64,000 nucleotides of DNA, taken from NCBI GenBank assembly GCA_903821875.1, contig CAIJMU010000115.1, forward strand, positions 1 through 64,000, in the 5' to 3' direction. Made by a program: the position numbers and the translations under genes. The DNA is from an uncultured Spirochaetota bacterium. Its GTDB lineage: Bacteria; Spirochaetota; Spirochaetia; Treponematales; Rectinemataceae. The notes below the pieces were generated by a model that saw nothing but the letters and a program-made list of their open reading frames with translations, was not told the origin of the DNA and searched no databases. Of this stretch, positions 1,843 to 18,411 are shown piece by piece (the stretch's first letter is position 1; each line of letters begins with the position of its first letter).

Positions 1843-3591
1843 TCATGCCAGGAGGAGGTCGAGATCGAGTTCGACGGCCGCGGCGGGAAGGCCGATACCC
1901 CAGGCTGAGAGCACCCGGGGATGGACCTCGCCGTAGACGCCGATGGCTGTACCCCGGTACATCATGATTGCCTGGCGGCCCGGGATGAAGCGCGGATCCT
2001 CGGCTCCGGCGACAGGCTCCTCGACCGAGAATTCGCGGTTGAGGTAGAAAAGCAGCGTTGCGACCTGGCTGGAGACCTCGTTGAAATCTGAGTCGGCATG
2101 CACCGAGAGGGCCCCGAGATACTGGCGCGTGGAAACGCCGTAATTCTGCCCATCGTCGCGGAAGGCCACCTTGCCGACCTCGAAGATGCGGTGAGGATAG
2201 GCGGCCTTGCTGGAGATCGACTCGGTGCCCAGGAGTCCTGGCATGGGCGAATTCCGTACGTACTCATAGTTTTCCGTCATCGGGTTGGCGACGCGGATGA
2301 CCTTCGTACCATCTATGCCCATTTTTTCAAGATAGTCCTTTCCCGAGCCGAGGTAGTTGTAGATCATCTCCTGGTAGCCGAGGCCGACCAGGAGCCCCTT
2401 GGCCTTCCGCGACAGGAGTTCGATCGGCGTGAGGCGTCCGATGGTGAAGTCCCTCGGGCGCTCGGGCGTGAAGTACTCCATGCCGACGCCAATCATGATG
2501 TCCTCGATGAGGTCGACCTGGTGGAGGAAATCATTGCGGTACTCAGCCGGCCAGGCCGAGACGTACTGGCCATGGATGTCGACAGAGGAGCCCATCACGG
2601 AGAGGGCCAGGGCGACCTGTTGCACGTTCAGGCTCTTGCCCAGGAGTCTCGAGGCGCGGCCAGCCTCGATGCCAAGGGGCTTCTGGAAATACCAGGGAAA
2701 GACCACCGAGCGTCCGAAGGGGGTCGTCCAGGGATATTCCACCATGACCGGCTCGATTTTCCATCCGAGGTCGGCAAAGTCGCAGGCCACGATAGACGAG
2801 GCGAGCGTGACCGAAGGCAGGTCCGTACCGGTCAGTTCGATGAAGAGTTCAGTGTCGCCGACCTGCACTGCGCCAAGGTCGGCGGAATTGATGATGGGCG
2901 GATAGGACAGTACATCCCCTGCTGAGTCGAGGAGGAGGGGGTGGAGGGGTTCGCCCTCGAGGATGGATGCGTACTCGCGGCCCTTGGGGTGCTCGGCCAA
3001 GATCTGGAGGAGGTCCATCTCCCTGGTCTCCTGGAGGGGGACAAAGCGGACCGAGCGCGGCTCGACGGCCCGGTAGAGCACGGGCCACTGGATCTTCGCG
3101 CTGCGGTAGATGCCCATCGAAATGGACCTGCGCTTGCGGCCGAAGTTCCAGGCAAGCTTCTCCTGGGTCTGGATCATGTCCTTGAGGAAGGCCTCGTCGA
3201 TGCCCCTGCCCGAGACGCAGAAGCCCGCGAGGAAGGGACGGACAGAGCCGACCGACTCCTCGACAATGACCCTGCGGGACGCGGCCTGGACCTCCCCCTG
3301 GCGGGAAAAGAAGGGGTAATTGGGACGGGTAGCACCGTCCTTGAGCCTGAGCTGGCGGGCAAGGCCTGCGGTGGACCAGAGGTCGGGCCTGTTCGTGTCG
3401 TTGAGCTCGATCTTGATCACCCGGGCGGAGGCGCCATCGTCCGAGGCAGCGGATCCCGCCCCGCCTGTGCCAGTATCCCACTCGTCAAGCTCGGCCTTGG
3501 CGGACTGGAGGGCGAGGTCGAGTTCGGCGCGCTCCATCCTGCGGCCGAGGAGGGAGAAGAAAAGGCCTTCATTCACTTCAATCTTGGGCAT
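1843..3591 (-). CDS. pheT: phenylalanine-tRNA ligase beta subunit, archaeal type
   Basis: 582 residues, clearly shorter than the roughly 800-residue bacterial PheT, and without the N-terminal tRNA-binding EMAP domain or the C-terminal anticodon-binding extension. It starts MPKIEVNEGLFFSLLGR, the archaeal/eukaryal-type beta architecture (B1, B3/4 and B5 domains plus a catalytic-like core). The B3/4 region near residues 90-280 carries the GFCVSGRGIDE and INSADLGAVQVGDTELFIELTG segments. Together with PheS it forms the alpha2beta2 enzyme charging tRNA-Phe. The ATG has an ideal ribosome site (GGAG, 6-base spacer). It follows pheS by 27 bases. The archaeal type of PheRS is known from spirochaetes and is a good lineage marker. 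Confidence 0.95.
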   Translation of the reverse strand: MPKIEVNEGLFFSLLGRRMERAELDLALQSAKAELDEWDTGTGGAGSAASDDGASARVIKIELNDTNRPDLWSTAGLARQLRLKDGATRPNYPFFSRQGEVQAASRRVIVEESVGSVRPFLAGFCVSGRGIDEAFLKDMIQTQEKLAWNFGRKRRSISMGIYRSAKIQWPVLYRAVEPRSVRFVPLQETREMDLLQILAEHPKGREYASILEGEPLHPLLLDSAGDVLSYPPIINSADLGAVQVGDTELFIELTGTDLPSVTLASSIVACDFADLGWKIEPVMVEYPWTTPFGRSVVFPWYFQKPLGIEAGRASRLLGKSLNVQQVALALSVMGSSVDIHGQYVSAWPAEYRNDFLHQVDLIEDIMIGVGMEYFTPERPRDFTIGRLTPIELLSRKAKGLLVGLGYQEMIYNYLGSGKDYLEKMGIDGTKVIRVANPMTENYEYVRNSPMPGLLGTESISSKAAYPHRIFEVGKVAFRDDGQNYGVSTRQYLGALSVHADSDFNEVSSQVATLLFYLNREFSVEEPVAGAEDPRFIPGRQAIMMYRGTAIGVYGEVHPRVLSAWGIGLPAAAVELDLDLLLA

Positions 3592-3618
3592 TGCTCACTC
3601 CAATCGAAAGGGCGGCGC

Positions 3619-5199
3619 TCAGAGCTTCGCCCGGCGGTAGCGGACGTTCTCGAGGTCGGGGCTGAAAAGCTCCCTGAGGTCATTCAGGCCCAGGGCCATG
3701 AGGGCCATCCGGTCTATGCCGATGCCCCAGGCGAGGACAGGCGCCTTGACTCCGAGGGACTCGGTCACCTCGGGGCGGAAAATGCCCGATCCACCCAATT
3801 CAAACCATCCGAGGACAGGGTGCTTGATGTGCACCTCGATGGAGGGTTCGGTGAAGGGGAAGTAGCCGGGAACGTATTTCACTTCCTTGGCACCGGCCAC
3901 CTCGACGGCGAACATCTCGAGGAAGCCCAGGAGGGTCCGGAGGTTCACATCCTCGCCGATGACGATGCCCTCGGTCTGGTAGAAGTCGGAGAGGTGGGTG
4001 GCGTCGACACGGTCATAGCGGAAGCAGCGCGCGATCCCGAAGTACTTGCCGGGAACCTTGGCTGTCGGGAGCTGCCGTGCTGAGAGGACCGTGCCCTGGC
4101 TGCGGAGGATGAGGCGCTTGGTGAATTCCTTGTCGAAGGAATAGTTCCAGCCACGGCTGCCCGACTCGCCACCTGTTTCATGTGCTGTGGCGACGCGGGA
4201 AAGGTAGGGCTCCTCGATGGACTTGGCCTTGACCGGATCTGCCAGGTGGTAGACATCGTGTATGTCGCGGGCCGAGTGGAACTGGGGCATGAAGAGCGCG
4301 TCGGAGTTCCAGAACTCGGTCTCGACGAGGCCACCGTCGAACTCCTCGAAGCCGAGGGAGACAAGCTTGTCCTTGACCGACTCGAGAAATTCGACGTAGG
4401 GGTTGCGACGACCGGGCATGAGGCGGGCGGTGGGACTCTTCACATTGTAAGGCCTGAAGGTCGCGCCTTCCCAGGATCGGCGGGCGAGGATGTCCGAGGT
4501 GACAGGACCCAGTTCATCGCCGGTGAGGCCCTCGGCCTGGAGGGCGATCCGCACATCCATCGTCGAGAGTGAAAGGCGATAGGTGACGATCTCGCGGTCA
4601 GCGGTGCGGAAGACCGAGTCACCGGCGCCGCGTTTCTTGGCGATGCCGGCCATGGCGGACTTTCCTGCAGCATTGAGTTCCGCATCGTCGATGATGCCGT
4701 CCGCGCTGGCGGCAGCCTTGGCTATGAGATCATGCACTATTGCCAGACGGGGTTTCTTCCCATTGGCATGGGCAGTGACGAACCAGGTGGGATCCAGGAC
4801 AGCGCGCTTTTCCCCGTCGAGGGAGAGTGCCCCTTCTTTGGAGAGCTGGCCGAAGGCCGATCCGACGTCCTTTTGCTCAAGCCCGAGGGCAAGGACAATG
4901 TCTGGCAGGCGCGCGGGTCCAGTGTCGGCCAGGTGCTTGAGAATGCGCTCCTCTGCGGTGCCCGAAACGGCTGCCTGGCGGCCGAAGGGAGTGAGCTCGT
5001 ACACGATGCGTGCGCTCCGGCCGGCCTCGGTCGCGAGAGCCTTGGCGCTGAGCCAGGAAAAAGCCTGGTTGGCCTGCCCCTCCTTGTAGCCCAGGTCGTG
5101 GATCAGTCGACCGGCGTCGAGATCCTCCTGGGGTCCATAGTGGAGAAGGACCTTCACTTCGAGGGGGTGGAGGCTCTTGGCAATGCTGCGTGCGTCCAT
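3619..5199 (-). CDS. pheS: phenylalanine-tRNA ligase alpha subunit, archaeal type
   Basis: 526 residues from the ATG at 5199, which has GGAG six bases upstream. An in-frame TTG at 5241 would add 14 residues but lacks a ribosome site. The N-terminal 200 residues are winged-helix-like, as in archaeal/eukaryal alpha subunits. The class II core holds motif 2 (FRYDRVDATHLSDFYQTEG) and motif 3 (AWGIGIDRMALMALGL) near the C-terminus. It catalyses Phe-adenylate formation and aminoacylation. It is the first gene of the pheS-pheT-membrane protein-yifB run and has its own promoter just upstream. Confidence 0.95.
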   Translation of the reverse strand: MDARSIAKSLHPLEVKVLLHYGPQEDLDAGRLIHDLGYKEGQANQAFSWLSAKALATEAGRSARIVYELTPFGRQAAVSGTAEERILKHLADTGPARLPDIVLALGLEQKDVGSAFGQLSKEGALSLDGEKRAVLDPTWFVTAHANGKKPRLAIVHDLIAKAAASADGIIDDAELNAAGKSAMAGIAKKRGAGDSVFRTADREIVTYRLSLSTMDVRIALQAEGLTGDELGPVTSDILARRSWEGATFRPYNVKSPTARLMPGRRNPYVEFLESVKDKLVSLGFEEFDGGLVETEFWNSDALFMPQFHSARDIHDVYHLADPVKAKSIEEPYLSRVATAHETGGESGSRGWNYSFDKEFTKRLILRSQGTVLSARQLPTAKVPGKYFGIARCFRYDRVDATHLSDFYQTEGIVIGEDVNLRTLLGFLEMFAVEVAGAKEVKYVPGYFPFTEPSIEVHIKHPVLGWFELGGSGIFRPEVTESLGVKAPVLAWGIGIDRMALMALGLNDLRELFSPDLENVRYRRAKL

Positions 5200-5279
5200 T
5201 AGGTGCTCCGGATGCTGGTCAAGGCTCGGTACGTTGTACAAAAGGACGCGCCAGGACAGTTCCCGGCGCGAGCACCGGC

Positions 5280-5346: not shown

Positions 5347-8241
5347 TCAGGGGCGCGTAAGTACGAGCATGACCAGCTCGCCCTTTCCGATAAGACTGAG
5401 GGTTCCGGGAGCGCTGAACCTGAGCCAGCTACCCGAAGTTCCGGCGAGGGTAAACCCTGGGGGCAGCCAGGAGATCGGCGAGCCCTCCGCATCGAAGGCT
5501 CGCGCGTACAGGGATCGCGCATAGAGCCAGCCAGAGCCCGCCGCGATGAGGTTGGAGCTGAAGTGCGAGCCGAGGGAGGGAACTGCGCTTTCGGCAGTCA
5601 TGTCAGCGGGCGCCAGATCAAGGACGAGGGTGGCGTTTGCGACGTCCGGGAAAACAAGACTGCCGAAGGGAAGGCCAGGACCCGCAAGGACATAGCCCCT
5701 TCCCTCGGCAGCGATAGCCCGGTCGAGGGCGCGCAGGGCAGGATCGCCCCGCCTGCCCTCCTCTGTCAGACCCTGCGCCTCTGCGCCTGGCTGAAGCACG
5801 ACAATGTCCCTGATCCGCCCTTGGGGAAAGCTCCCGAAAAGCCTTCCCTCGGCCAGAAATTGAGGCTCGGTGGAGGCCGCCGCTGCTTCCAGCGGGGGAG
5901 GGCCGCCTGTGAAGCAGAGCGGCCGCACCTGGAGGATCTCGAGTCTGGGCTTGGCGCTTTCTGACAAGTCAAAGGCGAACTCGATGCTTGCCTGGTTGCC
6001 ATAGGCACGGCCAACCATTCCAAGAAGGTGGTCGAGGGCAGCACAGGCCCCTGAATCATGGAGGGCGGCGAGGACTCTTTTGCCCGCCTCCGTGGCCGAG
6101 GACCGAGATGCGGATTGGGTCGCGGCAGTCTCCGACAGTGGGAGGGAATCTGAGGACTGAGGGTTGCCGGTACCATCAAGGCAGAGAACCGGATAACGGT
6201 CAGGCCAGTCGAGACCGGAGGAGGAGGGCTTTGCGAGCGGCATGAAGATTCCCTTGCCTGCCCCGCTGACCTGGCTGCCGAAGCCCGGACTCAGGGCAAA
6301 GCCGGGACCTGCCCTGTCCAGGCTCGAAAAGGCGATACCCGCCGCTGTCGGCGAGAACCAGATGCCAGTGCGATGCCCGGAGAGCTCCTGCACAACGACA
6401 GCCATCCGCTCCTCCTCGAGCTGGTAACCCGAGGCCTCGATGTGGCTCCGGGACAGCGAGGAGAAGAGACTCGCCCACACCAGCTTGATGCCAGCGAGGA
6501 AGGCAGTGAGCCGCGCTTCGATATCAGGCCCATCATTGGGCAGGAATACTGTTTCATAGGCGCCAGCCATCGGCACCATGACCATGTCTTCGAGGAGTCC
6601 CGAGGATCGGAGGGCCAGGGGTGCATGGCAGGCAGCGAGGAAGCGCCGTGCCGGTTCGAGAAAGCGCCCGGGGAACTCAGAGTGGGCGAAACGATCGGCG
6701 ATGCCGAAGCCCGGTTCCCCGTAGTAGGCCTCGGACCACAGGCCGTTCTTTTCGAGGAACTCCTCGAAGAGGTCAATGCCGATAAAGGCGCTCCTGGGGA
6801 CAGCGATCGAGAGGCCGGGATAATCCTCGTCCAGGCGCTCGGTCTCGACGACCCTCGCGATGAACTCAAGGCCCCTCCCCTTCCCTCCCACCGAGCCGGA
6901 GCCGATCCGCGAAAGGGAACCCGGCAGGGAGTAGATCTCCTCGGCGAACTCAGGCAGGAGACCCTCGGCCTTCTCGAGCCGCACATGGTCCACCACGCGT
7001 ACGAGGAAGCTCCTGATGTCCTCGGAGGAGGCGAAATCGTCGACCCTCATGCCACGCAGGATCGAGGCGAAGCGATACTCGCCGCGGGCCCCGAGCCAGG
7101 TCGAAAAATCGTTGCGCCTGGCGTGCTCGGTTGTACAGGAAGCGGGTACGGACCTGAGGCACTGCGAGAGCTCTTCCATGGTTCTCGCCGTTGCAATGGT
7201 CTTTCCATCCCCGTCCTGGAAGGAAAAGGGACCGAAGCCCAGATGGCTCCGGATGAAATCTCCGAGTTCGTGGGCCAGGGATTCGGAGCTTTTCTCGACA
7301 AAGGACGCACCAATGGCCAGGGCGGTCGCGCGGACACCCGCCTCGCTCGACTGGATCAGGACAGGCAGGTCAGCCTTGCGCGAGCGGGCGAAGCGGGCGA
7401 AGGCAAAGCCTGCCTCGGGATCGAAGCGGCCAGCGCGCATGAAACGGAGGTCGGTGATCAATGCCAGTATCGATCCCTCGTGCCTGGTGAAGGTTGCCTC
7501 GGCCTCCTCGAAGCTTGATGCAAGGAGGATCTTCGGACGGGTGCGTGCGCGGAGGAGGCGGTAGGTCTCGACGCCGCTCTCCTCCTCGATGAGGTCCTGG
7601 GTCTGCTTGAGGAGGATGGAGTAGATCAGTGGCAGGTAACGCGAGTAGTAGCGCACCGAATCCTCGATGAGGAGGATGGCGCGCACGAGGCCCGAGCCTG
7701 TGTCAGCATCGGCGTTGCGGCTGTCCTCGACGTACTTGATCATGCCGACGAGGAGCTTCGAATAGCCGTTCCACACGAAGGTCCTGTCGAAGAAGGCGAA
7801 CTCGGGCCGGGTCGTGTCGAGTTCGGCGAGGGTGGAATTGTTGAGGACAAGGAGGAGGAGTGGCACGGTGGGTGAGCGCGCCCTGAGTTCCATGGCGAGC
7901 CGCAGGGGCCGCTCGACGTCGAGGCCGGCCATGATGATCACGAGGTCGAAGGAACCCGATCCGAAGCGTTCGAGGGCTGATTCCTCGGTGTATGCCGAGG
8001 TGAAGCGAGGCATCGAGGTAAGGTTTAGCCTGGAGTATTCTCCGTACATCTGCTCGGTGAGGAAGCCATCGGCCTCCACGACGAAGGAGTCGTAGAGGCT
8101 GCCGATGATGAGGATTTCGCGGACCCGCCAGCGCATGAGGTCATGGAAGAGGCCACGGTCGCGCCGATCGAGGGCCCAGGAGGAGACGAGCTCGCCGTAC
8201 TGCATGGGCCGATGATACGGCGCGTCCGCCACTCCCCGCAA
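5347..8241 (-). CDS. receiver-like / PEP-synthase ATP-grasp domain protein, paralogue A (degenerate copy)
   Basis: 964 residues from a TTG at 8241 preceded by GGAGG with a 6-base spacer; an in-frame ATG at 8205 has no ribosome site. Two receiver-like folds occupy the first 360 residues. In the second, the IEDS, LITDLRF and LIQSSE strands mimic the acidic pocket, phospho-Asp and Ser of response regulators, with Lys in FVEKSS. From about residue 440 there is a PPDK/PEP-synthase N-terminal (ATP-grasp) domain with SVGGKGRG, LALRSSGLLEDM and ERMAVVVQE. There is no phosphohistidine swivel and no PEP-binding barrel, so ordinary PEP synthase activity is unlikely. The partner's GRWGTRDPWLG segment is missing here (AGPGLPFGSLVFP instead), while GSHF is kept. 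Substrate and role are unknown. It lies 31 bases after paralogue B. Confidence 0.85.
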   Translation of the reverse strand: MRGVADAPYHRPMQYGELVSSWALDRRDRGLFHDLMRWRVREILIIGSLYDSFVVEADGFLTEQMYGEYSRLNLTSMPRFTSAYTEESALERFGSGSFDLVIIMAGLDVERPLRLAMELRARSPTVPLLLLVLNNSTLAELDTTRPEFAFFDRTFVWNGYSKLLVGMIKYVEDSRNADADTGSGLVRAILLIEDSVRYYSRYLPLIYSILLKQTQDLIEEESGVETYRLLRARTRPKILLASSFEEAEATFTRHEGSILALITDLRFMRAGRFDPEAGFAFARFARSRKADLPVLIQSSEAGVRATALAIGASFVEKSSESLAHELGDFIRSHLGFGPFSFQDGDGKTIATARTMEELSQCLRSVPASCTTEHARRNDFSTWLGARGEYRFASILRGMRVDDFASSEDIRSFLVRVVDHVRLEKAEGLLPEFAEEIYSLPGSLSRIGSGSVGGKGRGLEFIARVVETERLDEDYPGLSIAVPRSAFIGIDLFEEFLEKNGLWSEAYYGEPGFGIADRFAHSEFPGRFLEPARRFLAACHAPLALRSSGLLEDMVMVPMAGAYETVFLPNDGPDIEARLTAFLAGIKLVWASLFSSLSRSHIEASGYQLEEERMAVVVQELSGHRTGIWFSPTAAGIAFSSLDRAGPGFALSPGFGSQVSGAGKGIFMPLAKPSSSGLDWPDRYPVLCLDGTGNPQSSDSLPLSETAATQSASRSSATEAGKRVLAALHDSGACAALDHLLGMVGRAYGNQASIEFAFDLSESAKPRLEILQVRPLCFTGGPPPLEAAAASTEPQFLAEGRLFGSFPQGRIRDIVVLQPGAEAQGLTEEGRRGDPALRALDRAIAAEGRGYVLAGPGLPFGSLVFPDVANATLVLDLAPADMTAESAVPSLGSHFSSNLIAAGSGWLYARSLYARAFDAEGSPISWLPPGFTLAGTSGSWLRFSAPGTLSLIGKGELVMLVLTRP

Positions 8242-8272
8242 GCGTTCCCTCCGTTTCCTCCGCTTCGGCCGG

Positions 8273-11200
8273 TCACTCCGCTGAGTCCGAGCCCCAGCCG
8301 GTCCCGGCGACCTCGTCCTCAGGGGCTGCGACCTCGCGCCGCGTGCGGAAAACCACCGCCTTCGAGGCCTTGCCGTCCATCACGATGTCCAGGGGAGCCT
8401 CAAGGCGCGTCCACACGCAGTGCTCGGTCTCGCCCCCCCTCGGCGCGGCGCGGAGCCAGTCCCAGTCCACACCACCACGATCGGCACCGCCGCCACTGCC
8501 GGAGCTTCCGCCTTTCCAGGGAATCGTCATATATCCGATATTCATACTTGTTACATTATGGAAGAAGTGCGAGCCCAGCGAGGACTCAACGCGGAAGTCC
8601 TCGAGGTCGGCCTCGACGATCACGCGCGCGTGGGCGATCTGGGAATAGGCCACCGGCACGCCGAGCCAGGGATCACGGGTCCCCCAGCGTCCGAAGCCGA
8701 TGAGGAGGTGGCGCCGGCCCTCGGCGGCGACCCTCCGGTCCAGGCCTTCGATCTCGCGGGCGATATCGCGCGTCTTCGCGCGATCGAAGCGAAGCGGGTC
8801 GATCCAGATGATGTCGGAAACGTCGCCGACGCGGCCGTTGCCCATGCTGCGCTCCGAGGCCAGGAGGTAGCCGTCCTTGGGCAGGGAGTCCAGATCGACA
8901 TCGGCGCCACGGTCGTTCCGGATGAGCGGCTTGAGCTGGAGGATGTAGAAGGCTGGCCTTCCCGTTTCCTCGTCGAGGTTGAGCGCGTACTCTATCTCCA
9001 CGGGCGAGCCCATGGAGCGAGAGCCGATGTCGAGCACGATGTCGATCAGCCTCGCCAGGGGCAGGGCATCGTGCTTGAGGATGTTCGCCAGGTCGATGAA
9101 GCGGAGCCCGGGCGAGGAACAGCCAGGCACGATGCGGTCATTGGCCGGATCCCAGGTCGAGGCCAGGAAGCGGAACTTCGGGTCGTTCTCCGCCTCCTCG
9201 ATGTCCAGCTCCTCGATGGCTGCGTCCTCGCCGGCGCGGAGGTCGGGCCGCGAGCGTTCGAGGTCGATGGCGCGGAAGGAGCGCTGCGAACTATCCCGCA
9301 TGCGCTCGGGCTGCACGACATCGAGCTTCGGGTAGCGCGGGCAGAAACGGTGGCTCGCGCCGCCGTCCACCACCCAGGAGCCCAGGCCAAGAGCCGCGAC
9401 GCAGAGCCCGTCCTCCGGCTTCAGGTAGGAAATGGGGTAATAATTGTAGGATTGCGCAGTGCCCGAGACATGGGGGTAATACCAACGACCTCGGCGGCGG
9501 CCGACGACCTCCTGGAGGACGACAGCCATCCTCTCCTCCTCGCGCTGGTAGCGGGCCACCTCGAAGTAGGACTTGGCCTTCGACGAGAAGAGGCTGGCCC
9601 AGACGAGGCGGATGGCGTCACAGAGCTGACCGAGGCGGACCTCGGGATCGCTGTCGGAATTGGGGATGAGGAGGGTTTCGTAGATGCCCGAGAAGGGCAC
9701 CATCAGCATGTCCTCGAAGAGTCCCGAGGAGCGGACAGCGATGGGACGGTCGGTCGCGAGCACGAAACGCCTGAGCCGCTCTACGAATTCCAGATCGAGG
9801 GGAGAGGCCAGGAAACGCTCGATGACCTCCTCGGGACTGGCCTCGTAGAAGGCGAAGGAGAAGATCCCGTTCACGTCGAGGAAGCGCTCGAACTCATCGA
9901 TGCCGACCAGGGCCGTGCGGGGGATCTTCACATCGATGCCCTCGATCACAGCGCTCAAGTCGAGGTGGTTGATGACGCTCCGTGCAAAGATGAGTCCCCT
10001 CCCCTTTCCCCCCACCGAACCGCTGGCGAGGCGGGTGAAGGAATCGTCGTCGTGGAAGTGGGCTTCGTCGAAGGCGGGAACCGTCCCGCGCGAACGCTCA
10101 TGCCTGATGTCAGAAAGGACCCGCACGATAAAGGCCCTGAGCGCCTCCTCCTCCCCGAAATCGTCGAGGTGGTAGGGCCTGATGATACGGGCGTAGCGCT
10201 GCTCGCCACGCGCGGAGAGCCAGATGGAGAAGTGGTTGTGTTCGGCATGGCGGATGATGATGTCCGGCGGCAGCTCGGCGATCCTCTCGATGAAAGCCTC
10301 CATGTTGCGCGCTTCGGCGACAACCGCGCCGCTGTGGTCACGGAACAGGAAGGGACCGAAGCCGAGGCTGCCCCTGAGGAATTGTCCGAGCTCGTGCTCG
10401 ACCGAGGGGGAGTCACGCCAGAGGAAGGCAGCGCCCAGGTCTTCGACCCGCTGGCGGTCGGCGCGTTCGGCCGACTGGATGACAAAGGGCAGCTCGGGCG
10501 CGCCATCGCGGGCCAGTGACAGGAAACGGAGGCCCGCCTCACGCTCCGTACCGCCCTCGCGCGTGAAATCGATGTCGCTGATGACTGCCAGGAGCTGCGT
10601 GCGATGCCGTTCAAGGATGGCGCTTGCGTGCTCAAAATCGCTGGCCAGGAGGATTTTCGGCCGGGACCGGCTCCGGAGGAGCTTGTAGATGCCGTCGCCG
10701 TTCTCCTCCTCGATGAGGGCCTGGGTCTGGGAAAGGATCACGTGGTACAGGAGGGGGAGGAAGCGGGAGTACTGGCGGACCGACTCCTCGATCAGGAGAA
10801 TGACGCGCACGAGTCCGGTATCGGCGTCGGCACCGGCGTTGAGTAGGTCCTCGACGAATTTCAGCATACCTATGAAGAGCTTGGAATAGCCGTTCCATAC
10901 GAAGACCCGGTCGACGGAGGAGAGGTCCGGACTGGCAGCCTCGATCGAGGAAAGCACCGCATTGTTGACCACCAGGAGGAGGAGGGGCACGTGGGGCAGC
11001 TCGGTCCTGATGCGGTCGGAGGTCTCGACGGCGGGGAGGAAATCGTTGCCTGCCATGACTATGACCGTGTCGAACTCACGTTCGCCGGCGAGCCTCAGGG
11101 CCTCGGCACTGTCCCCTGCGGAGGTGATTCGCGGCGCGGAGTCCAGGTTGAGCCGGAAATACTCGCCGAAGGACTGCTCGACGAAGACCCCGTCAACCTC

Positions 11201-11362
11201 CATGACAAAGCAGTCGTAGTCGCTGCCGACCACGAGGACTTCCCGCACCCTGCGACGCATGAGGTCATGGAAGGCATTCCGCTCGTCCCGCCCCTTGTCC
11301 CATGACCGGACCAATTGATTGAACATGTCGGCCGGGGCGACGGCCTGCGTTGTAGATGGCAT
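8273..11362 (-). CDS. receiver-like / PEP-synthase ATP-grasp domain protein, paralogue B
   Basis: 1029 residues from an ATG at 11362, with AAAGGA about 11 bases upstream. It has the same architecture as the next gene: two tandem receiver-like domains (about residues 25-170 and 185-370; VILLIEES, VISDIDF and VIQSAE strands), a short linker, then a PPDK_N ATP-grasp region from about residue 450 (GSVGGKGRG, IAVRSSGLFEDM, ERMAVVLQE). A conserved C-terminal block follows (LLIGFGRWGTRDPWLGVP and SSLGSHFFHNVTSMN). It lacks the His-carrying and PEP-binding domains of true PPDK/PEP synthase. The Gly-rich tail near residues 950-975 looks like a linker. Similar proteins are usually annotated 'PEP/pyruvate-binding domain protein'; I know of no assigned reaction. 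It lies 39 bases after glyA and is probably co-transcribed with it. Confidence 0.85.
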   Translation of the reverse strand: MPSTTQAVAPADMFNQLVRSWDKGRDERNAFHDLMRRRVREVLVVGSDYDCFVMEVDGVFVEQSFGEYFRLNLDSAPRITSAGDSAEALRLAGEREFDTVIVMAGNDFLPAVETSDRIRTELPHVPLLLLVVNNAVLSSIEAASPDLSSVDRVFVWNGYSKLFIGMLKFVEDLLNAGADADTGLVRVILLIEESVRQYSRFLPLLYHVILSQTQALIEEENGDGIYKLLRSRSRPKILLASDFEHASAILERHRTQLLAVISDIDFTREGGTEREAGLRFLSLARDGAPELPFVIQSAERADRQRVEDLGAAFLWRDSPSVEHELGQFLRGSLGFGPFLFRDHSGAVVAEARNMEAFIERIAELPPDIIIRHAEHNHFSIWLSARGEQRYARIIRPYHLDDFGEEEALRAFIVRVLSDIRHERSRGTVPAFDEAHFHDDDSFTRLASGSVGGKGRGLIFARSVINHLDLSAVIEGIDVKIPRTALVGIDEFERFLDVNGIFSFAFYEASPEEVIERFLASPLDLEFVERLRRFVLATDRPIAVRSSGLFEDMLMVPFSGIYETLLIPNSDSDPEVRLGQLCDAIRLVWASLFSSKAKSYFEVARYQREEERMAVVLQEVVGRRRGRWYYPHVSGTAQSYNYYPISYLKPEDGLCVAALGLGSWVVDGGASHRFCPRYPKLDVVQPERMRDSSQRSFRAIDLERSRPDLRAGEDAAIEELDIEEAENDPKFRFLASTWDPANDRIVPGCSSPGLRFIDLANILKHDALPLARLIDIVLDIGSRSMGSPVEIEYALNLDEETGRPAFYILQLKPLIRNDRGADVDLDSLPKDGYLLASERSMGNGRVGDVSDIIWIDPLRFDRAKTRDIAREIEGLDRRVAAEGRRHLLIGFGRWGTRDPWLGVPVAYSQIAHARVIVEADLEDFRVESSLGSHFFHNVTSMNIGYMTIPWKGGSSGSGGGADRGGVDWDWLRAAPRGGETEHCVWTRLEAPLDIVMDGKASKAVVFRTRREVAAPEDEVAGTGWGSDSAE

Positions 11363-11401: not shown

Positions 11402-12685
11402 TCACGGCAAGGAAAACCTCGAGGTGAGCCCGAGCACTTCCTTCCTTACCCGATCGATCGCCACCGGATCCCCCTTGGCCTTGAGCACGTCCATTATGTA
11501 GCCCGCGATGAGGCCCATCTCCCCGTCGCGCATCCCGCGCGTCGTCACCGCTGCTGTGCCGACGCGGATGCCAGAGGTCACGAAGGGACCCTTCTGGTCG
11601 AAGGGAATGCCGTTCTTGTTGACCGTGATGTGCGCCTCGTCGAGCCATTTCTCCGCTTCCTTGCCCGTGATGCCAAGGGGAGAGAGATCCACCAGCATGA
11701 GGTGGTTGTCGGTGCCGCCGGAGACGATGCGCGCTCCGCCATCCGAGAGTTCCCGGGCCAGGATTTTCGCGTTGGCCACCACCTGGCCGATATAGTCCTT
11801 GAAGCCCGGCTCGAGGGCTTCCTTGAAGGCCACTGCCTTGGCCGCGATGACGTGCATGAGGGGTCCACCCTGGATGCCCGGCATGATCGTCGAGTCGATC
11901 ACTTCCGACCAGAGTCTGGCCTTGTCGCCCTTGGGATTCATGATGCCGAGGGAGTTGTCCCCGTCGCGTCCGATGATGATCATGCCGCCACGAGGGCCGC
12001 GCAGGGTCTTGTGCGTCGTCGTCGTGGAAAAATCGGCTAACTTGACGGGGCTGGGGTGGTGGCCTGTCGCCACGAGGCCGGCGATGTGCGCCATGTCGAC
12101 GAGCAGCAAGGCTCCCACCTCATCGGCTATGGCCCTGAATCTCGCAAAATCGAGGACCCGCGCATAGGCCGAGGCTCCCGCTATCAGGAGCCGGGGCTGG
12201 CACTCGCGCGCGATCCGGGCAACCTCGTCGTAGTCGATGGTCTCGGTGTCCTTGTTCACGCCGTAACGGACTACATTGTACATCTTGCCCGAAAAGGATA
12301 CCGGTGACCCGTGGGTCAGGTGGCCGCCGTGAGCAAGATCCATGCCGAGGATCGTATCACCGGGCTTGAGCACCGAAAAAAGGACGCCCATGTTGGCCTG
12401 GGATCCGGAGTGGGGCTGCACGTTGGCGTGGTCTGCCCCGAAGAGCTGCTTTGCACGATCTCGGGCCAGGTTCTCCGCCATGTCGACGAATTCGCAGCCG
12501 CCATAGTAGCGCTTGGCTGGGTAGCCCTCGGCGTACTTGTTGGTCAGCACCGAGCCGGCGGCTTCCAGTACCGCGCGCGAGGTGTAGTTCTCGCTTGCGA
12601 TCAGCTCGAGATTGTCGCGCTGACGGCCGGTTTCGAGCTGCATGGCCTTCCAGAGCTCGGGATCATAGTTCTCGATGAGGGACAT
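11402..12685 (-). CDS. glyA: serine hydroxymethyltransferase
   Basis: 427 residues, full family length. The ATG at 12685 is chosen because GGAG sits five bases upstream; longer in-frame readings begin with Pro-rich sequence unlike the family. PLP-enzyme hallmarks include LIASENYTS, the [15 protein letters not shown] segment, and [16 protein letters not shown] with the PLP-binding Lys. It interconverts serine and glycine with tetrahydrofolate and feeds one-carbon metabolism in the cytoplasm. Its leader contains a TATACT element and a small CCCGGC/GCCGGG hairpin (near 12700-12720). Confidence 0.97.
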
Positions 12686-12840
12686 TGGCGCTCCTTCCTT
12701 TGCCCGGCTCGACGCCGGGACTTGAAGTATAAACCCGGAATGAGGAGTTGGGGGAGGGATGATCGGAGGGGGAGGTGCCAGACGCAAACCATCGGGCCAG
12801 GCCATCGGCCGGGATGCGCAGGCACACTCCCTAAGCTATG

Positions 12841-13666: not shown

Positions 13667-14977
13667 CTACCTGAGGAAATCAAGCAGGGTCTGCGGGAAC
13701 ATGCGCCCCGCGAAGCCGAGGCTCGCCTTGTGGGCATAGTCGAGCATGCGGTAGTCGGTCACCGCCTTGGTGATGTCGAGATCGGTCTCGGCCGACAGGA
13801 GTCGCGTCGCGTCGGGGATCTCCTTGTTAAGCCGCGCGGCGATAAAGTCGAGGCGTTCGCTCCTGGCGCCGATCTCCGTGGCACGCCGCGTGAGGTTCTC
13901 GAGCCCTGAGTCGATGCCGGCAAGGGCGAGGCCTCCGGTCTCCAGGACATCGCCCTTGTTGAGCGAATCGCGCAGCCGGATGACGACATCGAAAAGCGAG
14001 CCCCCGCTCGAGCGCGCCGAGGGCGCGAGGTTGTCGGGTACGCGGCCACCGGGGACGATGACGCCAAGCTGGGACAGGGGACCCGACCTTTCACCAGTCC
14101 TTCCGTCAGAAACGGCAGGAGCGGCTCCGTCTGCACCGGCAGTGCCCGCAGTGCCAGCGAGGTCTTCGAGGCGCATCTGGTGGGGAATGGTCGCCTCGAG
14201 CATCAGCGAGAATCTCCTGGGGTCGATGCTGGCGCGTACCGCCGCCCCGGAGTCGTTGATCTTGGCCACGAGGGCCTGCACCGTATCTCCGGCCTTGACC
14301 TCGATCTTGATGCCGTCAACCGCGATGGAGCTGTCGGCTCCGGCACGCCAGTCGCGCGCATCGAAGCCCGAGGCCACCTGCTGCCTCTCTGCCCAGAAGA
14401 TATCCGTGCCTGGCTGCCTGAGCGCAATGGTCGTGCCCTCGGAAACCTCGGAGCGGGCCCCGTTGTAGCCCCCCTGGTATTGCACGCCGGTGACCCCCTC
14501 GGTGCCGGTGCCGACAGCCGTGCCCAACACCGTCCGGTAGGGCTCGGTCCTCGAAGCATCGCCTGCAAAGAGGAAGGTCCCGTCCGGCGAACGGGCATTG
14601 GCCAGGGAGACCAGTTCGTTGAGGAGCTGGTCCACCTCGACTCCAATGGCCTTGCGGTCATCGCTGGTATAAGTCCCGTTGGCGCCCTGGACCGCCAGCT
14701 CGCGGATGCGCTGCATCACGTCGACGGCGCTTCGCACATAGCCCTCGGTCACCTTGGTCTGGTCGGCTGCCGCCTGGGTATTGGTTTCATAGCGCTTGAG
14801 GCGCTCCACCACCGAGTCGTAGCGTACCGCGCGCGCGGCCCCGAGGGGATCGTCGCGGAGCTTCTCGATCTTCTGCTGCGTGGCCATCCGCGTCTCGAGG
14901 CTGGCCATGTCGCGCTCGTTCCGGCGGAGCCAGAACTGCATGTCGTTGTTCATCAGGTCAGAACTTACCCGTCTCAT
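13667..14977 (-). CDS. flgL: flagellar hook-filament junction protein 3 (HAP3)
   Basis: 436 residues, ATG at 14977. The N-terminus is flagellin-like: MRRVSSDLMNNDMQFWLRRN is followed by heptad-rich helices (ETRMATQQKIEKLRDDP, VERLKRYETN) and a typical GANGTYTSDDRKAI stretch. The C-terminal helices are ENLTRRATEIGARSERLDF and LSAETDLDITKAVTDYRML. It forms the junction between FlgK and the flagellin filament in the periplasmic flagellum. It is secreted through the flagellar type III apparatus. Confidence 0.95.
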   Translation of the reverse strand: MRRVSSDLMNNDMQFWLRRNERDMASLETRMATQQKIEKLRDDPLGAARAVRYDSVVERLKRYETNTQAAADQTKVTEGYVRSAVDVMQRIRELAVQGANGTYTSDDRKAIGVEVDQLLNELVSLANARSPDGTFLFAGDASRTEPYRTVLGTAVGTGTEGVTGVQYQGGYNGARSEVSEGTTIALRQPGTDIFWAERQQVASGFDARDWRAGADSSIAVDGIKIEVKAGDTVQALVAKINDSGAAVRASIDPRRFSLMLEATIPHQMRLEDLAGTAGTAGADGAAPAVSDGRTGERSGPLSQLGVIVPGGRVPDNLAPSARSSGGSLFDVVIRLRDSLNKGDVLETGGLALAGIDSGLENLTRRATEIGARSERLDFIAARLNKEIPDATRLLSAETDLDITKAVTDYRMLDYAHKASLGFAGRMFPQTLLDFLR

Positions 14978-15014
14978 CGTGTCCCCCGGCTATTCAGCCA
15001 ATTGGTCATTTCCA

Positions 15015-16901
15015 TCAGGTCATCTTGTTGATGATGGTGTCGAGCATCTCGTTCATGACAGTCATGAACTTCGCGGAAGCGGCGTAGCCGTGCTGGAACT
15101 TGATCATCTCGGCGAGTTCCTCGTCCATGTTGACACCTGATATGGACTGGCGGAGGTCGCGGAGGTCCTTGCCGATGCGGTCGTGGCTCTGCATGGCGCG
15201 CTGTGCCCGCTCGCCCTCGAGTCCGACGCGGGAAACCGCCTCGGCAAAGTGGTCGTCAAAGGTGCGCTGGCTGCCGACCATGACGGCCTTCGTGCGGAGC
15301 GAAGCCATGGCGATGGCGGCCGAACCGTCACCGGGGGCTGCAGGCTTGCCGTTCTCTCCGAAACCCGCGGCGATGGAGCCGGGATCGGACTTGATGGCCG
15401 CGCTTACCTCGAGCCAGCCCGCAGGATGGGACAGGGGCGCGACGGCAAAATCCTTCGCTCCGATGGACAGGACATTGGCAGCGTCCGCTCCCCCCCAGTC
15501 GAAGGCAGCGGCAGGTCCGCTCGACTTGAGGAGTCCCGCATAGCCGGCCAGGAAGCGGCCGGAGTCCTCGACGTGGCGGATGACAAAATCAGGGTTGTCG
15601 GCCCCGCCGGAATCAGCGCCAGAGGCGGGAGTGCCGCGGAGTTCGAGGTGACCGGTCCGGTCGAGGCGGGCCGTCACCTCCGCTCCGGAGTGGTTGATGC
15701 GGCTGACGACGTCGGCGACGGTGTCGGTCGGGTTGTAACGCAGCGTCACCGGACCGTCCTTGCCGGAGAGGGTGAGGGTCCCGGCAAGACCCAGGAGGGC
15801 CTGCCCGTCGAGGCTGTTGCTCCCCGACATGCGGTAGAGCATGGTCGAGTCGAATTTCCCGTCACCGTTCCTGTCATAATTGCCCGCGATGTCATTGACC
15901 GCAGGGAACTCTGAGAAAAAGTCGAGGCCGGTCTTTCCGTTGAGGCCATAGGCTGCCCTGTGGGTCTCGTTCACGAGGTCGGAAAACGAGAGCGCCAGGG
16001 TATCGAGGGTCTGCACTTCCTTTTTTACGTCGCCGTCGCGGAGTTCCACGAGGGCGCCAAGGGTCCCCCCCTTCGCGCTGAAGGCCAGGCCGGTTTCCTT
16101 CCACACAGGATGGGCAAAGCCGTTCTCGTCCGCCCCGGCGAGGGCCAGATCGCGGGACTTCCCCCCCTGTACGATGACAAGACCTTCCACATGGAGCATG
16201 TATTCGTCGCCATCGCGCTTGTCGACACTGACCGGCACGAGTTTTGCGAGCTTCTCCGCCAGGAGGTCGCGCCTGTCCATGAGGTCGTTGGGATTGTCGC
16301 CCATGGCCTGGGACTTGACGATCTCGGCGTTCACGGTCGCGATTTCCCGGGCGATGCCGTTGACCTGCTCGACCGTCCCCCTGAGGTCTCCATCGATGGC
16401 GGAGCGGAGATCGGTGAGGCGACGGTAGCGGTCGCGCATGCCCTCTGCGAGGGCCTCTCCACGGGAAACGACCGCCTCGCGCGCGGAGCTGTCCTCGGGA
16501 CGCTGAGCGAGTTCCTGCCAGGATCCCCAGAACTTGTCCATCAGGGTCCTGACGGAGGAGTCGCTCGGCTCGTTATGGATATCCTCAAGGGCGAGGAGGT
16601 TCTTGTCGCGGGTGCTCCAGTAACCCTCGAAGCCCGACTCACCGATGATCCTCCCGTCAAGGAGCCCATCGCGGATCCGTTCGATGCGTTCGATGTTGAC
16701 ACCCTGCCCGATCTGGCCGGGAGTGGTCTCTCGGTTGGCCTCGGGGGCGTAGAGGGGCTGGGCGGCAGAAAGATCGACCCGTTGCCGGGAGTAGCCTTCG
16801 GTGGAGGCGTTAGTCAGGTTGTGGCCGATGGTGAGAAGGCCCTGGTTGTGAGCGCCGATGCCGCGCTTTGCGATCTCTATACCCGAAAATGCCGATTGCA
16901 T
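15015..16901 (-). CDS. flgK: flagellar hook-associated protein 1 (HAP1)
   Basis: 628 residues from an ATG at 16901. The N-terminal signature is conserved (GIEIAKRGIGAHNQGLLTIGHNLTNASTEGYSRQRV), and so is the C-terminal helical end (GVNMDEELAEMIKFQHGYAASAKFMTVMNEM). It joins hook to filament. The leader between flgN and flgK carries four GGA triplets in about 30 bases, including two ATAGGA units that overlap the ribosome site. That is the pattern expected of a CsrA target. Confidence 0.96.
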   Translation of the reverse strand: MQSAFSGIEIAKRGIGAHNQGLLTIGHNLTNASTEGYSRQRVDLSAAQPLYAPEANRETTPGQIGQGVNIERIERIRDGLLDGRIIGESGFEGYWSTRDKNLLALEDIHNEPSDSSVRTLMDKFWGSWQELAQRPEDSSAREAVVSRGEALAEGMRDRYRRLTDLRSAIDGDLRGTVEQVNGIAREIATVNAEIVKSQAMGDNPNDLMDRRDLLAEKLAKLVPVSVDKRDGDEYMLHVEGLVIVQGGKSRDLALAGADENGFAHPVWKETGLAFSAKGGTLGALVELRDGDVKKEVQTLDTLALSFSDLVNETHRAAYGLNGKTGLDFFSEFPAVNDIAGNYDRNGDGKFDSTMLYRMSGSNSLDGQALLGLAGTLTLSGKDGPVTLRYNPTDTVADVVSRINHSGAEVTARLDRTGHLELRGTPASGADSGGADNPDFVIRHVEDSGRFLAGYAGLLKSSGPAAAFDWGGADAANVLSIGAKDFAVAPLSHPAGWLEVSAAIKSDPGSIAAGFGENGKPAAPGDGSAAIAMASLRTKAVMVGSQRTFDDHFAEAVSRVGLEGERAQRAMQSHDRIGKDLRDLRQSISGVNMDEELAEMIKFQHGYAASAKFMTVMNEMLDTIINKMT

Positions 16902-16926
16902 GTCCTATCTCCTATGGTCCGTCCGC

Positions 16927-17421
16927 CTAGAGGGCGGTGTTCACAAGGATCGCGTCGTGTCCCGGGTGGACGACCCTGCCCGACTTCCCGTAGATATTCC
17001 CCTTTTTCTCGGGGAAAAGTTCTTCAAGCACTGTGCCGAGGAGGCTGCGGCTCGCGGCCGCATAGTCGCCGAGGCTGCCGTTCTCGAGGCGTACCCGCAT
17101 GGCCGAGATCCTGAGTCTTCGATGGAGGTCCGTGAGCCTCGTCCGTTCCGGTTCGGAAATCGCCATGGCGATTTCGAGGATCCCTTCACGCTCGAGGCCG
17201 AGATCGAGACGCATGAAGGACTCTGCGGTGATTCGGTCGGCCTCTACCCTGCTGATTTCCCTGGACCGCTCCTCGAGGGCTTCCATCGCCCTCGTGAGCC
17301 CCGGCCAATCCCGGCTTTCGAGGGCCTGGGCAAACTTGCGCTGCGCTTCAATGCAGTTGTCGAAGGCTTCAGCCTCCCGTTCCATCGCTGTCATCAGGGT
17401 CTCGAGCTTCTCGTGGGCCAT
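16927..17421 (-). CDS. flgN: FlgN-like flagellar export chaperone
   Basis: 164 residues from an ATG at 17421 with GGAG eight bases upstream; longer readings run through promoter sequence and are not credible. It is almost wholly alpha-helical and charged (HEKLETLMTAMEREAEAFDN, ALEERSREISRVEADRI), as in the FlgN/YvyG family. FlgN chaperones FlgK and FlgL. Placement directly upstream of flgK-flgL supports the assignment; sequence conservation in this family is weak. Confidence 0.82.
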   Translation of the reverse strand: MAHEKLETLMTAMEREAEAFDNCIEAQRKFAQALESRDWPGLTRAMEALEERSREISRVEADRITAESFMRLDLGLEREGILEIAMAISEPERTRLTDLHRRLRISAMRVRLENGSLGDYAAASRSLLGTVLEELFPEKKGNIYGKSGRVVHPGHDAILVNTAL

Positions 17422-17444
17422 TCCGGGTACTCCTTCACTTTGGA

Positions 17445-17470
17445 ATATCGGAAGGCACAGACAGTATTTG
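17445..17470 (-). promoter_or_regulatory. candidate flagellar sigma28 promoter of the flgN-flgK-flgL-fliW-csrA operon
   Basis: On the minus strand CAAA (17470-17467) precedes TCCGATAT (17452-17445) with 14 bases between. The sigma28 consensus is TAAA, about 15 bases, then GCCGATAA. It is a partial match. The predicted start lies about 15-20 bases upstream of the flgN ATG, leaving room for its ribosome site. Confidence 0.45.
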
Positions 17471-17504
17471 AGGGAAAAGCGGGGAAAGGGCACTGCAGCT
17501 CCCG

Positions 17505-17533
17505 TTGTCCCTTGCCCCCTCGCCGGATATAGT
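17505..17533 (+). promoter_or_regulatory. sigma70 promoter directly abutting the P-loop/Asp23 gene
   Basis: TTGTCC (17505-17510), a 17-base spacer, then TATAGT (17528-17533). The start codon of the next gene is at 17542, so transcription should begin within about 0-3 bases of the ATG. No ribosome site precedes that ATG. Confidence 0.6.
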
Positions 17534-17541
17534 GAGCACAC

Positions 17542-18411
17542 ATGTTCAGGTTCATACGGGAAGCCATCTGGGCCCTCAAAGGCGTGCGGGTCTACGCCCT
17601 CGTCGGCGAAAGCGGTACCGGCAAGAGCTTCAGGGCCAAGCTGGTCGCCCAGAAATACGGCATCGAGATGATCATCGATGACGGGCTCCTTATCGGTGGG
17701 GATGTCATCATCGCCGGGAAGTCGGCCAAAAAGGAACAGGTCTTCATGACCGCAGTCAAGACTGCCCTCTTCCACGAAAAGGCCCATCGGGACGATGTAG
17801 CGCGGGCCCTCGACCGAGAGCGCTTCCGGAAGATCCTCGTGATAGGAACGAGCGATCGCATGGTCAGGAAGATCTGCGAGCGTCTCCAGATTCCCCATCC
17901 GGGCAAGATCATCAAGATCGAGGACATCGCTTCGAAGATGGATATCGAAAAGGCTGTCCGTTCACGCCAGGTCGAGGGGAAGCACGTCATTCCCGTCCCT
18001 GCCCTCGAGATCCGCAAGGCCTACCCGACCATTTTCTACGATTCCATCCGGGTCTTCCTCAGGCGGAGTTTCGGCAGCGCACCCGCCCGGCCTAAGCTCT
18101 ACGAGAAATCCGTAGTCCGGCCTGAGTACGCCAAGCGCGGCCGCGTCGTGATCTCCGAGGCTGCACTCTCCCAGATGGTCATCCATTGCGTCGACGAATT
18201 CGACAAGGCCCTCCACGTGCGCAAACTCAACATCAGAACGGATTCCCAAGGCTACCGCCTCACCATCGTCCTCGAGGTTCCCTTCGGGGCGCGGATAGCC
18301 AGTGACGCGAGGGCCCTCCAGGAATATGTCATAGAGAACCTCGAGCGCTTCACAGGGATACTCATCGAAGAAGTGACGATAATCATCGATCGCTTCTCGC
18401 CCTCAAAATGA
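17542..18411 (+). CDS. P-loop NTPase with C-terminal Asp23/Gls24-like domain
   Basis: 289 residues, divergent from the flagellar operon. Residues 15-30 hold a Walker A (VGESGTGKS), followed by an ATPase-like region with LVIGTSDRM and a MIIDDGLLIGG segment. The C-terminal 110 residues (from about RGRVVISEAALSQMVIHCV to IENLERFTGILIEEVTIII) resemble the Asp23/Gls24 (DUF322) fold, which in other bacteria occurs as small envelope-stress or membrane-associated proteins. Fusion of the two is unusual. No ribosome site is visible and the promoter suggests a leaderless mRNA. A 7-bp CGCCCTC/GAGGGCG hairpin spans the stop codon (18398-18416). The function is unknown. Confidence 0.75.
   Translation: MFRFIREAIWALKGVRVYALVGESGTGKSFRAKLVAQKYGIEMIIDDGLLIGGDVIIAGKSAKKEQVFMTAVKTALFHEKAHRDDVARALDRERFRKILVIGTSDRMVRKICERLQIPHPGKIIKIEDIASKMDIEKAVRSRQVEGKHVIPVPALEIRKAYPTIFYDSIRVFLRRSFGSAPARPKLYEKSVVRPEYAKRGRVVISEAALSQMVIHCVDEFDKALHVRKLNIRTDSQGYRLTIVLEVPFGARIASDARALQEYVIENLERFTGILIEEVTIIIDRFSPSK

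Follow-up and report, generated by a model that had tools for sequence, protein, structure and literature searches.

A receiver-linked ATP-grasp protein family of PEP synthase type, encoded near glutamate dehydrogenase genes in Spirochaetota and Bacteroidota, as a candidate regulator of ammonia assimilation

We analyzed a stretch of 64,000 nucleotides (hereafter, the window) from an uncultured Spirochaetota bacterium (assembly GCA_903821875.1, contig CAIJMU010000115.1, positions 1 to 64,000 of the forward strand), focusing on two adjacent genes that we call A and B. The minus strand carries glyA, A, B, pheS, and pheT in this order (Table 1), with intergenic gaps of 39 bp (glyA-A), 31 bp (A-B), and 105 bp (B-pheS). 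The gap between B and pheS contains a terminator-like and a promoter-like match, which are weak evidence. The length given for B counts from the listed TTG; a family-like ATG lies 12 codons on, at about position 8205. A first-pass annotation, made from the sequence alone, had described tandem paralogues between glyA and pheS in which two receiver-like folds precede a PPDK_N domain, an ATP-grasp domain of the phosphoenolpyruvate (PEP) synthase type. This description was borne out: the two proteins are 41% identical, and the domains were recovered as detailed below.

Table 1. Genes of the A-B locus and domains of protein A, with their positions in the window.
Feature	Position	Strand	Description
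Gene A	8273..11362	minus	Open reading frame, 1029 aa: REC1-REC2-linker domain-PPDK_N ATP-grasp-C-terminal domain, probably swivel-like
Receiver-like domain 1 (A residues 31-184)	10811..11272	minus	PleD-type REC-REC matches; no phospho-acceptor Asp (Met103)
Receiver domain 2 (A residues 184-340)	10343..10813	minus	Asp263, Ser297; usual Lys316 is Arg in A
PPDK_N ATP-grasp domain (A residues 448-821)	8900..10021	minus	Pfam match; GGKG 451-454, R544, E550, D551, E789, E791, Q809, K811
C-terminal domain (A residues 818-1029)	8276..8911	minus	Phosphohistidine carrier-like fold; GRWGTRDPWLG 891-901, invariant His932
Gene B	5347..8241	minus	Open reading frame, 964 aa; diverged duplicate of A with a canonical receiver 2; lacks the GRWG block and retains the His
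glyA	11402..12805	minus	Serine hydroxymethyltransferase, SHMT match in Pfam; upstream of A
pheS	3619..5241	minus	tRNA-synt_2d match; downstream of B
pheT	1843..3591	minus	Adjoins pheS also in relatives

The architecture of A is conserved in 42 spirochaete loci (records titled as spirochaetes or as bacterial contigs of metagenome-assembled genomes) and in full-length relatives at 33-35% identity from Bacteroidota records of a plasmid collection. It is therefore not a product of chance. A-type genes are single in most of the spirochaete loci; in this group, A is an ancient gene present in one copy. In a draw of genomes from the phylum, relatives were found in 29 of 149 genomes, mostly matching only from about residue 445 onward. 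The ATP-grasp and C-terminal domains thus form a module that exists behind several different N-termini. We collected 112 distinct open reading frames with this module: 81 of the receiver type, 25 of about 870 aa, four of 1056-1074 aa, and two short ones (576-578 aa) that have no N-terminal part. Two of the four proteins of 1056-1074 aa were scanned with Pfam, and both carry a nucleotidyltransferase-like tail. Four receiver-type frames (1289-1574 aa) have an N-terminal extension, which in the two that were inspected comprises repeats resembling, by eye, the N-terminus of the 1056-1074-aa type. The pool includes matches from a phage collection, which are unannotated faecal scaffolds titled 'Bacteriophage sp.', probably bacterial DNA, and which were excluded from the linkage counts given below. 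A scan of viral contigs with the relative from Parabacteroides found no relative.

Some of these architectures were inspected individually. A KaiC-like N-terminus, proposed by eye for the relatives of about 870 aa, found no support in Pfam, NCBIfam, or PDB sequences; this label and that of 'GAF-like' for the N-terminus of the L054 type are tentative. In loci L089 (4748-9638) and L090 (3702-8596), a module protein of 576-578 aa is encoded directly upstream of a relative of 1056-1061 aa, and this further tandem pair of the family is flanked, by eye, by glutamate dehydrogenase and metallophosphoesterase-like genes. Loci L091 (4884-9497) and L092 (2477-7129) encode receiver-type proteins (1538-1551 aa) whose N-terminal part holds about four repeats similar to the sensor-like N-terminus seen in the L054 type; after these module genes come a LuxR-like response regulator gene (by eye) and then gdhA.

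An AlphaFold model of A (44 sequences; predicted local distance difference test, pLDDT, 75.3; predicted template modelling score, pTM, 0.62) supports both the receiver and the ATP-grasp folds, since its N-terminal part matches receivers and its ATP-grasp part matches rifampin phosphotransferase and pyruvate phosphate dikinase (PPDK). Receiver 2 (residues 184-339) aligned to solved receivers with a Z of about 14 in VIA structure comparisons. The receivers of A and B score below the Pfam cut-off of Response_reg, and the first receiver of the relative L051 passes it (E-value 2.3e-8). Receiver 1 is a pseudo-receiver, i.e., it has the fold and no phospho-acceptor aspartate: position 103 is Met, Thr, or Ile in each of the 79 receiver-type relatives long enough to include it. 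The phospho-acceptor site of receiver 2 is intact across the family: all 81 receiver-type proteins have Asp263 and Ser297, 80 have Lys316, and almost all have the acidic pair. As these receivers are fused to PPDK_N in a single chain, the proteins have the composition of REC-PPDK response regulators, and the first-pass suggestion that receiver domains are joined to a nucleotide-dependent module is supported. A gene for a histidine kinase with HisKA_2 and HATPase_c domains lies directly upstream of A in locus L027, which is only a hint that such a kinase may phosphorylate the protein; the sensor-like genes between gdhA and A differ from locus to locus, with no constant partner kinase among those listed.

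The ATP-grasp domain matches PF01326 (PPDK_N) with 104 bits in A and 79 bits in B, for a curated cut-off of 27, and a Pfam scan of both proteins gave no other match above cut-off. Past PPDK_N there is no Pfam match to a PEP/pyruvate barrel and only about 210 residues are left, modelled as one small domain. Without the barrel, the ordinary cycle of PEP synthase is impossible, as the first-pass annotation had stated. The best score against PEP synthase models was 45.6 bits (cut-off 883), and the GG-x-T-S-H motif of PEP synthase and PPDK is replaced in this family by S-x-G-[ST]-H-F-F. Yet the positions K453, R544, E550, and D551 are conserved in all 112 module proteins, and E791 and Q809 in all 109 that reach them; these are positions that have a role in PPDK. 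The whole model of A aligned to PEP synthase (2ols) over 355 residues, with a Z of 23.0 and a match reaching residue 1008. The nearest solved structure for the ATP-grasp part (residues 431-818) is rifampin phosphotransferase (5hv1, Z 23.0, 277 residues aligned). One might thus suspect a phosphotransferase of similar kind, passing a phosphoryl group from ATP through His932 to a metabolite of glutamate or ammonia metabolism, with the receivers as a switch. We consider this quite unlikely: the family has no rifampin-binding domain, and indeed no domain left over for a substrate, the NCBIfam model of rifampin phosphotransferase (NF041857) gave 22.9 bits, far below its cut-off of 999, and receivers at the N-terminus suggest signalling.

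The remaining C-terminal domain bears on whether the module could carry a phosphoryl group. We folded residues 818-1029 of A in isolation with AlphaFold (pLDDT 88.0, pTM 0.84). The best VIA rows were central domains of PPDK (5jvj_B, 127 residues aligned, Z 7.3, in the range below 8 where VIA warns that a match may mean a common arrangement only). The isolated phosphoryl-carrier domain of PPDK (2fm4) gave a Z of 7.2 over 118 of 128 residues, with a root-mean-square deviation of 3.8. Next came additional PPDKs and two bacterial pyruvate kinases, the latter matched through their C-terminal part. PPDK accounts for 11 of the first 14 rows; one unrelated structure reached a Z of 6.5, and the remaining rows had 5.2 or less. 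His932 is conserved in 109 of 109 module proteins, B included (three of the 112 are truncated by contig ends before this position). In the isolated model it is the first helix residue after a strand and a loop, a place similar to that of the phosphohistidine in PPDK. This domain is thus probably a swivel-like, divergent carrier of the phosphohistidine type. The first-pass annotation had excluded a swivel domain, which now seems doubtful, and the detection of one, named there as a refuting result, has come about in part: the fold likeness and the invariant histidine point to one, without support from sequence profiles, and a phosphohistidine step would therefore be possible.

The strongest clue to function, absent from the first-pass interpretation, came from the gene neighbourhood. 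To measure it, we used a draw of 98 genomes of the class around the window genome, for which alone the following statistics are valid. It contains 69 module loci in 52 genomes, and glutamate dehydrogenase, called at an E-value of 1e-30, is present in 71 genomes. A glutamate dehydrogenase gene lies within 2 kb of 56 of the 69 module loci, for 0.27 expected from gene number and genome size, and within 5 kb, as within 10 kb, of 57. All 52 genomes with the module encode the enzyme, compared with 19 of the 46 others (Fisher p 4e-12, uncorrected for relatedness). As a control, we took 137 matches to PF00391, the phosphohistidine swivel domain: among the 105 located in genomes with glutamate dehydrogenase, one was within 2 kb of its gene, and that match looks by eye like a pyruvate kinase. 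The 13 module loci beyond 2 kb are those of genomes G000 (the window), G063 (3.2 kb), G177, G184 (two), G193, G199 (two), G201 (contig C33), G216, G224 (contig C292), G226, and G229, and some of them touch contig ends. At three of them we searched for other genes of glutamate metabolism: a glutamine synthetase gene adjoins the module in G177, a glutamate synthase gene lies about 4 kb away in G229, and neither was found at the locus of G226.

The association spans module architectures with different N-termini and extends to Bacteroidota. A further set of 49 loci (46 from the phylum and class draws, plus the loci of G177, G229, and G226 as chosen exceptions) has glutamate dehydrogenase in 40. 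Among the others, locus L132 of the phylum draw abuts glutamate synthase, and neither enzyme was found at L094, L114, L117, L125, L127, and L176. In Parabacteroides, annotated glutamate dehydrogenase genes stand beside and near the module gene, with other genes also between the two gdh genes. The loci of Parabacteroides (L079) and Phocaeicola (L177) have a glutamate dehydrogenase gene, and none was found at that of Prevotella (L080).

Taken with the conserved residues, these neighbourhoods suggest a receiver-gated "half PEP synthase" that would tune ammonia assimilation, most likely through the activity of glutamate dehydrogenase, a proposal that we hold with evenly divided confidence. Receiver 2 would be phosphorylated by a histidine kinase, presumably on Asp263, or be set otherwise, and together with pseudo-receiver 1 would gate the ATP-grasp domain. 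The latter would bind ATP and most likely hand a phosphoryl group to His932 on the divergent, swivelling C-terminal domain. Because there is no PEP/pyruvate barrel, this group would not be sent to pyruvate and would instead regulate a partner (glutamate dehydrogenase being the most likely one), such that ammonia assimilation follows the nitrogen and energy state. Transfer from ATP via His932 to a partner, switched by the receivers, is the simplest reading because the module would bind ATP, has an invariant carrier-like histidine, and has no barrel; the genomic link is what designates glutamate dehydrogenase, or ammonia assimilation more generally, as the controlled process.

Several results weigh against this proposal. 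The match of the C-terminal domain to carrier domains is moderate (Z 7.3 at best), a Foldseek search with this domain alone returned nothing at an E-value of 0.001 or better, and PF00391 is unmatched by sequence in A and B. When 86 C-terminal domains and 27 PEP-utilizer domains were compared as profiles with hhalign, neither the local nor the global alignment was significant (probability 0.3%). This negative outcome limits the swivel identity to a fold and one invariant residue; the profile of the domain also had no match among PDB sequences. In receiver 2, the window A is alone among the 81 receiver-type proteins in having Arg at position 316. At the level of genomes, 19 carry glutamate dehydrogenase without the module, and gene neighbourhood is no proof of a direct target. 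Within the clade of the window, the constant immediate neighbour is pheS and not gdhA. The only gdhA of the window genome is on another contig, C47, where no module gene adjoins it, by eye; the A-B locus itself adjoins no glutamate dehydrogenase or other glutamate or glutamine gene, its neighbours being glyA and pheS.

Some of these points would fit a pseudo-enzyme, in which the ATP-grasp domain only binds ATP, ADP, or AMP, the C-terminal domain is structural, and glutamate dehydrogenase is regulated by binding instead of by covalent phosphotransfer. Such a sensor would account for how far the family has diverged from PEP synthases (no score above 45.6 bits), for a C-terminal domain that profile comparison does not tie to phosphohistidine domains, and for the pseudo-receiver. 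We nevertheless find it rather doubtful, as neither His932 nor the ATP-grasp positions vary between proteins whose N-termini are very different, a degree of conservation beyond what mere binding seems to require.

The pheS clade suggests another possibility, namely a role in phenylalanyl-tRNA synthetase or in phenylalanine supply, the link to glutamate dehydrogenase being ancestral only. pheS is present in the fetched stretch of 35 of the 42 spirochaete A loci and lies at most 500 bp from A in 26. Six of the seven A loci without it have less than 3 kb left downstream, and L042, with 6.8 kb, lacks it. By eye, genes of aromatic amino acid synthesis (DAHP synthase, aroB, aroC, pheA, and others) stand directly upstream of an A-type gene and pheST in L006 (2563-8897) and L025 (2071-7029). 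This role is very unlikely in our view: pheS was not found near 48 of the 49 loci of the further set, the exception (L121) belonging to the clade of the window, whereas the gdhA link is common to all architectures. In L042, which lacks pheS, gdhA is directly upstream of A. More broadly, gdhA occurs in 21 of the 42 loci of the clade, mostly 1-10 kb upstream, many flanks being cut; it was not found at eight loci that have about 10 kb of sequence ahead of the module match (L003, L010, L014, L021, L022, L029, L035, and L041). Two copies of A flank gdhA in L026, and in L027 the order is gdhA, histidine kinase, A, B, pheS, pheT. It is likely that an ancestral neighbourhood of gdhA and A was later joined to pheST and that, in the window genome, the locus then lost gdhA. 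The pheS and pheT products of the window (1843-5241; 540 and 582 aa) look by eye like phenylalanyl-tRNA synthetase subunits of the archaeal/eukaryotic type, as in other spirochaetes. Upstream of glyA, at 13667-17898, flgL and flgK were recognized by eye, and a third open reading frame may hold a flgN-like gene.

Gene B has a narrower distribution. We found a counterpart only in L027, and both B genes follow an A gene; the independent scattering of the two genes that would have refuted the first-pass interpretation was thus not observed. In a quick tree with long branches, where the exact position of B is unsure, the two B proteins form a clade (support 100) within a group of 12 A rows. B thus stems from one recent duplication and evolves faster, and it is still under constraint, given uncorrected pN/pS values of 0.33/0.64 (0.21/0.59 for A). 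It lost the GRWGTRDPWLG block that A retains, as noted in the first-pass annotation, as well as part of the ATP-grasp core. Its receiver 2 keeps the usual residues at the positions where the window A deviates, so a split of duties is possible, B being probably regulatory. The active/regulatory pair proposed initially remains conceivable in these terms, though it is not the basic unit of the family. A heteromer in which A retains the catalytic module and B the canonical receiver 2 is accordingly a tentative possibility: the genes are 31 bp apart on the same strand, B has the losses just named, Arg316 and the replacement of Asp193 by Glu are confined to the window A among the 81 receiver-type proteins, and B is still constrained, but B occurs in two genomes only and the A of L027 has a canonical receiver 2. 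Such a heteromer would be an addition to the proposed control of glutamate dehydrogenase and not a substitute for it.

The combination of receivers with PPDK domains is already in print. REC-PPDK response regulators are listed as a 'Bacteroides-like combination' in a census of archaeal two-component systems (J Bacteriol 2018, PMC5847659). They resemble the present family in joining receivers to PPDK_N, and the present family has full-length relatives in Bacteroidota; the census entry gives a domain combination only and says nothing of glutamate dehydrogenase, of the C-terminal domain, or of a function. Aspartate-less receivers were described as highly associated with PPDK domains (PMC4395418), which recalls receiver 1, while in receiver 2 of the present family all catalytic residues are retained. 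Desulfovibrio DVU0246 is annotated with a mobile PEP-utilizer domain (PMC4001038), in an arrangement that, from its description there, looks different. Compared with PEP synthase and PPDK themselves, the family shares the ATP-grasp domain followed by what is probably a divergent carrier domain, and differs by the missing barrel. Among the papers listed in our searches of the open literature, outside of which most subscription papers lie, we recognized none that links these proteins to glutamate dehydrogenase, and the relative in Parabacteroides is annotated merely as 'PEP/pyruvate-binding domain-containing protein'.

A bolder extension of our proposal is a new class of phosphohistidine signalling, in which the ATP-grasp "half PEP synthase" would charge its own His932 and then exchange phosphoryl groups between this residue and the receivers of the same protein, no classical histidine kinase being involved. 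It would thereby control glutamate dehydrogenase, hence ammonia assimilation, in Spirochaetota and Bacteroidota, replacing the PII/GlnE logic of enteric bacteria. We regard this extension as unlikely. Should the linkage be functional, this widespread family, which has no known role, becomes a concrete candidate for a regulator of glutamate dehydrogenase, a main enzyme of ammonia assimilation. It would also offer a candidate for an old observation in Bacteroides: Baggio and Morrison reportedly found in 1996 that one or more trans-acting genes next to gdhA in Bacteroides thetaiotaomicron, on a segment said to be of 3 kb, affect glutamate dehydrogenase activity. The likeness lies in the position near gdhA, and the identity of that gene with the present family is only a candidate one. 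If our proposal is true, evolution would have put the ATP-grasp and carrier pair of PEP synthase to new use in signalling, with the metabolic barrel left out.

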